Assembly: GCA_018402015.1 (NCBI GenBank)
Contig: JAGYJL010000030.1
Location: 1 to 32,241 of the forward strand
Length of the DNA: 32,241 nucleotides
Source of the DNA: Flavobacteriales bacterium
GTDB lineage: Bacteria > Bacteroidota > Bacteroidia > UBA10329
Direction of reading: 5' to 3'
A program made the position numbers and the translations under genes. A model generated the notes under the pieces. The model searched no databases and was not told the DNA's origin. It worked only from the letters and a program-made list of their open reading frames with translations. Each line of letters opens with the position of its first letter. Position 1 is the stretch's first letter. Positions 30,564 to 32,241 of the stretch are shown one piece after another.

Positions 30564-30920
30564 TCAATAATCCTGTACCAGTACTTCCGTAGGAATGTGA
30601 AGCGAAGTGCTGAGTTTTCTGATCATATCGAGCGTAAGTTTTCGTTTACGGTTCAGGATTTCGCTGACGCGGCTTTTCAGTCCGATCAATTCCGCAAGGT
30701 CCTTTTGTTTCATACCCATCTGCTCCATACGGAACTTAATGGCCTCAATCGGGTCGGGGAGATGTATCGGGTAATGCTCATCTTCGTATTTCTCTATTAA
30801 GATGGAAAGAACCTCAGCCTCATCTCCTTCTAGAGTGTCAGCTTCGGCATGAAATATCTTTTCCAATCTTGCCAACGCTTCGTTATAATCCTGTTCTGTT
30901 TTAATTGCGCGTATTTTCAT
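30564..30920 (-). CDS. higA: HigA-type antitoxin, XRE-like
   Basis: This antitoxin has 118 residues from the ATG at 30920, which lies one base after the toxin stop. An upstream in-frame ATG at 30950 inside the toxin gene is less likely. The N-terminal part (about 1-65) is acidic. The helix-turn-helix occupies about 65-105 (QKDLAELIGLKSRVSEILN). It should neutralise the HigB-like toxin and repress the operon. The order toxin then antitoxin is characteristic of higBA. Confidence 0.88.
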   Translation of the reverse strand: MKIRAIKTEQDYNEALARLEKIFHAEADTLEGDEAEVLSILIEKYEDEHYPIHLPDPIEAIKFRMEQMGMKQKDLAELIGLKSRVSEILNRKRKLTLDMIRKLSTSLHIPTEVLVQDY

Positions 30921-30921
30921 C

Positions 30922-31215
30922 TCAAATAGTGTTTGCATCGATTTTGTCATACTCTTTGTGCGTTCCTACAAACCGTATGAACATCCATTTCCTTTTGTAG
31001 TTAATGTCGGTTATCAGTCTGTACTTGTTCCCACAGATATTGAAAACCACTCGTCCATTTTTGAGAATACTCGCTGAGGCGTGTTGATTTTTTATTTCGT
31101 TCGGATTTTCCCACTCCGCCTTGCTGCTCTCCTTATACCATGAAGCTAGTTGCTCTTCACTGTCGGGGTGTTTTTCCCAAAATTCCCTCAGCGCTTTTTT
31201 GGCAATTATTCTCAT
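30922..31215 (-). CDS. higB: HigB-type mRNA interferase toxin
   Basis: This 97-residue toxin is of the HigB family with a RelE-like fold. Such toxins cut mRNA on the ribosome and slow growth. The pattern AKKALREFWEKHPDSEEQL, then ILKNGRVVFNICGNKYRLI and WMFIRFVGTHKEYDKIDA, matches the family across its length. It is basic, has no signal peptide, and is followed by higA after one base. A -7 box lies 8 nt upstream of the ATG. Confidence 0.92.
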   Translation of the reverse strand: MRIIAKKALREFWEKHPDSEEQLASWYKESSKAEWENPNEIKNQHASASILKNGRVVFNICGNKYRLITDINYKRKWMFIRFVGTHKEYDKIDANTI

Positions 31216-31223
31216 TGACCTTA

Positions 31224-31231
31224 CAAAAGTA
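31224..31231 (-). promoter_or_regulatory. Bacteroidota-type -7 box of higBA
   Basis: On the minus strand this reads TACTTTTG, matching TAnnTTTG, and ends 8 nt before the higB ATG. The leader would be 0-2 nt. No clear -33 box is visible. Confidence 0.45.
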
Positions 31232-31256
31232 ACTAAAGTTCCCGAATTGGTAACTT

Positions 31257-31628
31257 TCAGATCAACCCACCCTTATCATACAACTCAACTCCTTTATTCA
31301 CCATTTCGCCAATCTCATCTTCCAGTTCGGGACTCAGCTTTTTGATGTGAAAACAGCTTTTGCCTTTCAGACATTTCTTCAGTTCGTCTGATGGCGCAAA
31401 CTCAGTCGGGTGTGTGTAAATAGGGAAGTAATACACTCGGATGTCTGAAGGTTTGGGCACCACGCTGGCGAAGTAATAACCATCCACTTTCTGTTTGCCC
31501 TGCATCGCTTCTTTCTTGCCGCAAAGCTCCAGTACGTTCTTCTCGTCTTTCCGCACGCGCAGAGTCGGAACATGCGATCTCAGGATCGCACGAAGCGTAG
31601 CTTCAATTTCGTTCAGTTCTGTTTTCAT
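31257..31628 (-). CDS. Small DUF1801-like protein
   Basis: This 123-residue cytoplasmic protein has the pattern typical of a Bacteroidota group related to DUF1801/YdhG: GKKEAMQGKQKVDGYYFASVV over about 42-62, then FPIYTH (about 68-73) and KKCLKGKSCFHIKKL (about 84-98). It has two or three Cys but no clear catalytic set. The function is unknown. It sits upstream of higBA on the same strand with 41 nt between, and diverges from the palindrome array and the saccharopine-dehydrogenase-like gene. The family call is by overall similarity recalled from memory. Confidence 0.6.
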   Translation of the reverse strand: MKTELNEIEATLRAILRSHVPTLRVRKDEKNVLELCGKKEAMQGKQKVDGYYFASVVPKPSDIRVYYFPIYTHPTEFAPSDELKKCLKGKSCFHIKKLSPELEDEIGEMVNKGVELYDKGGLI

Positions 31629-31697
31629 GCTGTGAAGATAGTCGATGGTTGATGGTCCATGGTATACAGGGTTTTCATGTTAATGAAAGTATCGTTC

Positions 31698-31921
31698 TGG
31701 CGATCTGCCGGAAGCAATATGTCCGAACATATCAATGCTGGCAAACTGCCAGAACCATTCTACCGCAGACGATTGTTGATGGCAAACTGCCAGAAGCATT
31801 CGGAAAGATCGGAGTACCGATGGCAATTTGCCGGAAGCAATTGGTTAGAACATATCAATGGAGGCAAAATGCCAGCACCATTTTACCCCAAACAAATGTC
31901 AGTGGCATTTTGCCACCATCA
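31698..31921. repeat. Array of six palindromic 19-nt units at exact 41-bp spacing
   Basis: Units begin at 31698, 31739, 31780, 31821, 31862 and 31903, each exactly 41 bp from the next. The consensus is TGGCAAACTGCCAGAAGCA with changes. The core GGCA-N3-TGCC is a perfect 4-base inverted repeat in units 2 to 6 (GGCAAACTGCC, same, GGCAATTTGCC, GGCAAAATGCC, GGCATTTTGCC), and nearly so in unit 1 (GGCGATCTGCC). The 22-nt spacers differ, but units 1-2 and 4-5 share spacer text, so a 123-bp block was duplicated. The array lies between divergent genes. The central base triplets vary while the arms stay paired, as expected for a binding site or structure rather than random sequence. Confidence 0.9.
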
Positions 31922-32067
31922 ATCTGCTCGAATGGATTCCTTTATCCATCAGGGTTTCAGAGGTTTTAGGGTGCTGTGACCTGACGACACTGTTGAAAGG
32001 AAGATGGCTAAGGTTAAGGGTTCAAAAAAAACTGGTCGCTGGTCGCAATCCGCTCTTCGCTTAATAC

Positions 32068-32075
32068 TAAGTTTG
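32068..32075 (+). promoter_or_regulatory. Bacteroidota-type -7 box before the saccharopine-dehydrogenase-like gene
   Basis: TAAGTTTG matches TAnnTTTG and ends 6 nt before the ATG at 32082. The palindrome array lies about 150-370 bp upstream, so it could act on this promoter. Confidence 0.45.
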
Positions 32076-32081
32076 CCCTTC

Positions 32082-32241
32082 ATGAAGAACATTCTCATCA
32101 TAGGAGCAGGACGCTCCGCAACAACCTTGATCGCTTACTTTTTAGAGCATTCCGAGACGAATGATTGGCGCATTACCGTTGGCGATATATCAGCGGAATT
32201 GTGCGAAAAGAAGATCGGTTCGCATCCCCGCGGAAGTGCCA
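32082..32241 (+). CDS. Saccharopine dehydrogenase-like protein (5' part only)
   Basis: 53 codons are present before the window ends. The N-terminus MKNILIIGAGRSATTLIAYFL holds a Rossmann NAD(P)-binding loop (GAGRSA), followed by WRITVGDISAELCEKKIG, which is the expected second strand and helix of the saccharopine dehydrogenase/lysine 2-ketoglutarate reductase group, and HPRG. Bacteroidota members have about 450 residues. The role is probably in lysine metabolism, but this is inferred from family only. Confidence 0.85.
   Translation, partial: MKNILIIGAGRSATTLIAYFLEHSETNDWRITVGDISAELCEKKIGSHPRGSA

Follow-up and report, generated by a model that had tools for sequence, protein, structure and literature searches.

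The window analysed here, a stretch of 32,241 nucleotides, ends within a gene that starts at ATG 32082 or, in frame, at 32004. The 53-residue piece of this gene has no Pfam match of its own; its description as saccharopine-dehydrogenase-like is borne out by the orthologue in a relative (G003, locus L214), which matches PF16653 (E 1e-81) and PF03435 (E 1.6e-15). The left neighbour, on the opposite strand, makes the intergenic region divergent, as first described from the sequence. This gene had been called DUF1801-like, but the match is below threshold (E 0.086; 13.7 bits against a cut-off of 27.2). A higBA pair was correctly placed close by: the HigB toxin gene matches PF09907 (E 1.1e-33) and adjoins an HTH_3 antitoxin-like gene. 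No tRNA was found in the window.

Table 1. Positions of the palindrome array, its parts and the neighbouring genes in the window.
Feature	Position	Strand	Basis
HTH_3 antitoxin-like gene, neighbourhood	30564..30950	-	
HigB-type toxin gene, neighbourhood	30922..31215	-	PF09907
Left neighbour, 123 aa	31257..31628	-	DUF1801 resemblance below cut-off
Stretch between the two blocks aligned with G003 (383 bp; 111 bp in G003)	31643..32025	.	
Extended inverted repeat centred on the linker of cores 1/2 (arms 35 nt, 71% complementary)	31688..31761	.	
Entire array, six 41-bp units (linkers related in units 1/4 and 2/5, 123-bp order)	31699..31944	.	
Core 1, GGCGATCTGCC (one arm change, G.T)	31699..31709	.	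motif scan
Core 2, GGCAAACTGCC	31740..31750	.	motif scan
Core 3, GGCAAACTGCC	31781..31791	.	motif scan
Core 4, GGCAATTTGCC	31822..31832	.	motif scan
Core 5, GGCAAAATGCC	31863..31873	.	motif scan
Core 6, GGCATTTTGCC	31904..31914	.	motif scan
Extended inverted repeat centred on the linker of cores 5/6 (arms 49 nt, 71% complementary)	31835..31942	.	
Terminal flank common to the G004 array (84%, 31 aligned positions)	31938..31967	+	
Right neighbour, 5' end of saccharopine dehydrogenase gene, truncated by the contig end	32082..32241	+	Pfam matches of the orthologue

Between the divergent genes lie six GGC-N5-GCC palindromes, all at steps of exactly 41 bp (Table 1). The sequence-only reading had reported this phasing, which holds for the six cores, and had counted six copies of GGCA-N3-TGCC, of which five are perfect but the first (GGCGATCTGCC) has one arm base altered, giving a G.T at the fourth stem pair. 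The five perfect cores keep their arms paired around precisely the centres that it had listed (AAC, AAC, ATT, AAA and TTT). Beyond these five, the 32-kb window has no perfect site; 300 first-order Markov surrogates of it contain 0.42 sites on average and never (0/300) two at one constant spacing between 20 and 100 bp. The six units are 0.96 identical over the eight arm positions, against 0.49 in the linker. Linkers of units 1 and 4 are 80% identical and those of units 2 and 5 70%, so that the array, a product of duplication, also shows an order of 123 bp. Among the nine letters 3' of the core, an A at unit position 15, CA at 17-18 and a T at 20 are common to the six units; the left flanks of cores 1-6 read CGTTCT, AATGCT, GTTGAT, ACCGAT, AATGGA and GTCAGT, and the right flanks GGAAGC, AGAACC, AGAAGC, GGAAGC, AGCACC and ACCATC. 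The array is thus a genuine but unusual repeat, of unproven function. Immediately to its left, 7-bp repeats (GATGGTC) occupy 31637-31663, and AGTCGATGGTTGATGG from this stretch reappears within the array as AGACGATTGTTGATGG (31767-31782).

The dyad of the cores extends weakly through the linkers. In the window, 9, 8, 7, 6 and 6 of 15 linker midpoint pairs are complementary, against 3.7 for shuffled linkers, and when the outer three pairs, which adjoin the cores, are dropped the mean is 6.4 of 12 against 3.1. This inner symmetry exceeds that of shuffles in 17 of 19 arrays (L253 included): the window, L016, L017, L196, L114 and L096 show it clearly, L049, L064, L077 and L057 slightly, and L041 and L059, which fall below the shuffles, not at all. 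The values are descriptive, because the units of one array are not independent. We dropped the notion of a separate second dyad at the linker midpoints, which in a periodic array is the core dyad's own symmetry continued through the linker. Both strands of the array fold more strongly than shuffled sequences (z of -6.1 and -6.3), their near equality being expected because the array is strand-symmetric.

Two relatives keep the gene pair and lack the array. In G003 the right gene is 92% identical in amino acids over 53 residues and the left neighbour is likewise kept; the gap has no core and measures 111 bp between the aligned blocks, against 383 bp in the window. In G008 the corresponding gap is 87 bp long, also without a core. 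Upstream of the orthologous gene, GGC-N5-GCC cores are absent from all seven loci surveyed in six genomes (900 bp each, 210 bp in L215; altered cores could be missed), G001 and G002 having yielded no orthologue. The absence of the array from the orthologous locus of relatives implies a lineage-specific gain here or a loss there. In G003 the array's slot (L214, about 1370-1440) is occupied by another palindromic repeat, CGTCATTGCGAG...GGCAATCTC...TTCGCAATGA, and a stretch similar to it, GGAGATTGC...CGCAATGACGG, lies 3' of the array in L019 and L028.

Related arrays occur at other loci within the genus. A three-core pattern with up to three mismatches detects arrays in two of its nine genomes, the one analysed here (G000) and G007, and misses that of G004 because its core differs. 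The three 41-bp units of G004 (GGAAGGGTTCT, GGAAGAATTCC and GGAAGAGTTCC) are of core type GGAA-N3-TTCC and have AGAAGCA behind the core, as does unit 3 of the window; compared with the window, one stem pair differs on both sides (C-G, A-T), with step and flank kept. Their linkers match that of window unit 3 at 17, 17 and 19 of 30 positions, where the best shuffled match averages 11.5 (95th percentile 14, maximum 19). When spacing was left open (27-57 bp), TGGAA-N3-TTCCA pairs were found in a single genome of the 395 in the class, namely G004, at 41. The G004 and window arrays further have a terminus in common, TCCTTTAT(C/T)CAT...GGTTTT (84% over 31 positions), which begins in both 24 positions beyond the last core base, beside different genes; it is short, with a pairwise E of 0.001, and a local alignment from the last core onward scores 59.5, where 500 shuffles reach at most 53. 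The G004 array (contig C67) lies between convergent genes, one AlgH-like and one encoding an aminotransferase IV. Two 41-bp arrays of G007 (L016 and L017), at separate loci, match at 85% over 328 bp, a length that takes in short flanks at both ends, and the one on contig C61 is also between convergent genes (enoyl-CoA hydratase and MazG), if an adjoining unassigned ORF of 102 aa is ignored. A third place in G007 holds a possibly coding 42-bp array (L018 1113-1470, C20), which we set aside because one frame stays open across it. Its unit has a second palindrome and contains TTGCCGGAAGCAGT, resembling TGCCGGAAGCAAT of window units 1 and 4.

These settings bear on the proposal that the palindromes form a cooperative operator array for the divergent genes. 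Arrays are intergenic with neighbouring genes in mixed orientations, two of those in the same genus (G004 C67 and G007 C61) lie between convergent genes, and the conservation at orthologous promoters that would mark an operator array is absent (0/7 relative loci with a GGC-N5-GCC core). The convergent and mixed settings, together with the empty orthologous slots in G003 and G008, are evidence against an operator, and we consider it unlikely that the array serves as one for the neighbouring gene. The suggestion of a new repeat family is right, being supported by the related 41-bp arrays that further members of the genus and class possess.

The 41-bp step recurs when spacing is not imposed. Pairs of GGCA-N3-TGCC at any spacing of 27-57 bp were found in 24 of 395 genomes of the class, compared with 8 of 395 for the pattern read backwards. 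Four genomes (G000, G007, G011 and G093) have pairs at 41, in each case within a longer array; G007 also has one pair at 42. Many pairs at different steps were seen in G360 (about 27-31 bp and longer) and in G307 (44), and the remaining 18 genomes contain no more than two pairs each, their steps being scattered. In the order of Maribellus, where 19 of 295 genomes have pairs, the genome at the centre of the scan (G395) has nine, all at 41 among those listed, and a single pair at 41 in G591 led to an array of six GGC units flanked on both sides by a degenerate one; other steps were seen in G542 (48) and G511 (50). A step of 48 was also seen in G786. Hence, the 41-bp step is present in four genomes that had not been selected for an array (G007, G011, G093 and G591), from three lineages. 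Four species of genus g4 have an orthologous array with seven aligned units and no indels inside. In arrays of Maribellus and Gaoshiqia (L049, L064, L077 and L114), cores are 0.95-1.00 identical and linkers 0.33-0.40; these come from a scan requiring three cores at 41, so that their step partly reflects selection by the scan, which could also miss units with indels.

The sequence-only reading had proposed a search of relatives for the 41-bp array and for its position relative to saccharopine dehydrogenase genes, and the outcome is divided: related arrays occur in the genus and class, but no GGC-N5-GCC core lies upstream of the orthologue (0/7 loci). Of the findings that it had named as adverse, one was made, the arrays being scattered with no tie to promoters, but the other was not, as those found keep the step and, mostly, the pairing. 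In its own genome (G000, 83% complete) the array is the only one found, and a looser unit pattern has 11 matches there, five in the array and six as singles with three mismatches, against three for the backward control. A different palindromic repeat, of higher copy number, is found on G360:C1 (places identical to G934:C1; also on G934:C3), with sixty GGCA-N3-TGCC pairs, mostly 27-31 bp apart among those listed.

Scanning the whole genome collection with the step fixed at 41 gave 103 stretches from many phyla, Treponema being conspicuous; because the scan fixed the spacing, the stretches are a lead only, and no evidence that 41 is special outside Bacteroidota. Units were tabulated for these 103 stretches plus L123, L016, L017 and L019, with L017 lacking an exact triple. 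The Treponema MAG HAN028 (G402; L057, L059, L073, L088 and L122) has many long 41-bp arrays, of up to 19 units by a lenient count, and 133 overlapping triples within three mismatches, apparently of one unit type in both orientations. With open spacing, 41-bp pairs were found in G402 alone among 59 genomes of its genus, three of which have any pair. A phylum scan centred on G404, which partly overlaps with the 395 genomes of the class, found pairs in 18 of 198 genomes, with no new 41-bp array and one lone pair at that step (G795).

The arms of these arrays change in ways that sometimes preserve pairing, although covariation is thin. In G591, GGCA/TGCC (GGCATTTTGCC) stands beside GGCG/CGCC (GGCGTTTCGCC), and the degenerate last unit (CAGTGTTTCGCTG) has CAGTG/CGCTG, with one wobble; the L028 core (GGTATTTTACC) has the paired change GGTA/TACC. 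Over the core pairs of 16 Bacteroidota arrays (G004 excluded), three double changes are all paired, against 0 to 2 paired doubles in slid registers, and 13 of 19 single changes break the pairing. The orthologous arrays of genus g4 are 0.908 identical in the arms, 0.835 in the linkers and 0.897 in the left flank, with an invariant centre (1.0); their fourth core pair is often A.C or A.A, the right arm being the one that varies. Arm pairing is a tendency and not a rule, and template switching could yield two-sided changes without selection. We dropped a strand bias of A.C versus G.T mismatches, since the scan pattern fixed the A in the left arm.

We favour, with a probability of about 0.6, the reading that the array is a dispersed, intergenic, dyad-symmetric tandem repeat resembling REP/BIME elements, gained or lost at differing loci, of which mainly the paired arms and the four-turn phasing are kept. 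Each 41-bp unit would contain a short palindrome, with GGCA/TGCC as stem and a 3-nt centre free to vary, whose dyad runs weakly into the linker, so that hairpins or cruciforms could form from single units and adjoining pairs on both strands alike. The units would multiply through tandem duplication, and arrays would arise at, or disappear from, non-orthologous loci. As arrays age, their linkers would drift while the 41-bp step, which is about four helical turns, and most of the arm pairing are retained, so that DNA structure and phasing would be kept and not an operator sequence of saccharopine dehydrogenase. The phasing might be used by the DNA structure itself or by an architectural protein, in the manner of DNA gyrase on E. 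coli BIME-2; we infer this use, as well as the mode of movement.

The closest known systems are similar in part. According to PMC2817692, BIMEs are regularly spaced REPs of alternating orientation, BIME-2 binds gyrase strongly, and RAYT genes are always flanked by REPs. The E. coli BIME-2 and Xanthomonas REP clusters described there resemble the array in their short extragenic palindromes, regular clusters, extended inverted repeats and lack of a set relation to neighbouring genes. By the same account, REPs are oriented, alternate and exceed 100 copies, whereas the array units are near-symmetric, head-to-tail and in a 41-bp register, and form one array here. The palindromes of the array are short and extragenic, as are REPs, but the flanks of the six window cores have no GTAG or CGTC tag at the palindrome foot, the one array in G000 is far from a high dispersed copy number, and no RAYT gene flanked by array palindromes was found, an array being present at one of the 30 Y1_Tnp loci examined. 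The array is not classed as a REP. It has the regular step of BIMEs, arms inverted across adjoining units and symmetric linkers, and the orientation of the window units is ill defined because they are near-symmetric. We have moderate confidence that the array works like a BIME. The CGTC-tagged REPs of Bacteroidetes and Spirochaetes, as described by Di Nocera et al. 2013 (PMC3733652), form mostly head-head dimers, with head-tail ones negligible; they occupy a similar intergenic slot, but the array sequence is unrelated to theirs. In our judgement, the repeat starting CGTCATTGCGAG in the G003 slot belongs to this class. PMC3733652 also gives 24-48 bp as the size of CRISPR repeats. As in CRISPRs, constant and variable parts alternate at fixed length in the array, but its constant part consists of eight arm bases round a variable centre, and where CRISPRs have near-identical repeats and unrelated spacers, its linkers are interrelated (80% for units 1/4, 70% for units 2/5).

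Tandem units also define the bacterial minisatellites, or VNTRs, and template switching during replication can mutationally correct quasi-palindromes. The array might thus be a neutral minisatellite, in which slippage multiplies units and template switching corrects them, with no function. Its tandem origin is plain, the number of 41-bp units varies between arrays (3-19 by the lenient count, unrelated arrays included), presence is sporadic, the arms in genus g4 are hardly more conserved than the linkers, and paired arm changes are products of template switching as well. We nevertheless find this rather unlikely, because palindrome and step survive longer than linker sequence. The window keeps a step of exactly 41 bp with linkers 0.49 identical, L049, L064, L077 and L114 appear to keep it with linkers at 0.33-0.40, albeit as finds of the fixed-41 scan, and the step recurs in separate lineages.

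A binding track for a dimeric sequence-specific protein, whether an operator array or a nucleoid protein, would place the sites on one helix face and agrees with near-invariant arms, a free 3-nt centre and exact four-turn phasing, both in the window and in those arrays of Maribellus whose linkers are nearly random. Inside the array, the - strand has three promoter-like matches (1.0 on average in shuffles, s.d. 0.8), each using a core arm as its first hexamer, although the consensus is of sigma-70 type and may not apply to this host; some effect of the array on transcription is thus conceivable. Yet, core letters vary among arrays of one genus (GGCA/TGCC and GGAA/TTCC), arrays are not linked to one gene or to promoters, and in g4 the centre is fixed while the right arm varies, which together make a sequence-specific track improbable. 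In itself, the exact 41-bp phasing across diverged linkers would be compatible with the nucleoid-protein track that had been suggested. A transcribed string of hairpins, acting as regulatory or sponge RNA, fits the strong folding (z about -6) and a - strand site at core 6 that resembles a terminator (31918-31900; two sites in the region against 0.8 shuffled), but is very improbable given that both strands fold about equally and neither is singled out, that nothing in 31200-32241 reaches the gathering score of an Rfam model (mir-450 comes closest, with 26.4 bits against 60), and that in other arrays 13 of 19 one-sided arm changes disrupt the pairing. A phage or plasmid origin was rejected, neither collection having a match at E 0.01; the 41-bp triple pattern occurs in one viral contig (L123), whose four units are identical to each other and unlike those of the window.

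We regard as speculative, and doubtful at present, the broader view that phased 41-bp palindrome arrays form a class recurring in Bacteroidota, with Spirochaetota and Fibrobacterota as possible further hosts. In such a class, selection or the mechanism of formation would measure dyad and pitch, and not the letters of core or linker, be it as the track of an architectural protein polymerising every four turns or as a repeat made by a hairpin-measuring enzyme. None of the open-access titles and abstract beginnings surveyed names 41-bp palindromic arrays, which does not prove that none has been published. Should the phasing be under selection, the arrays offer a natural readout of some protein or process by which four helical turns are counted, in bacteria whose chromosome architecture is little known; if they are neutral, they would provide a clean example of palindromes maintained by mutation. 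Either way, they caution that a divergent region may contain phased palindromes which are not operators.

Finally, we considered RAYT/Y1 transposases as general mobilisers of the dispersed repeat. Y1_Tnp matches are present in 18 of 24 genomes, 17 of them over the cut-off, including in the array's own genome one match (E 7.6e-10) within an 872-aa frame, at a locus (L177) without core. The candidate was rejected: among the 30 transposase loci examined, a subset of the matches, one has an array (L185), 1.1 kb away. This locus is in Maribellus sediminis (L185/L077), where the array lies about 1.1 kb from an IS200-like Y1 transposase gene, and the gene between the two resembles the DUF6261 gene that adjoins the array of Maribellus maritimus (L064).
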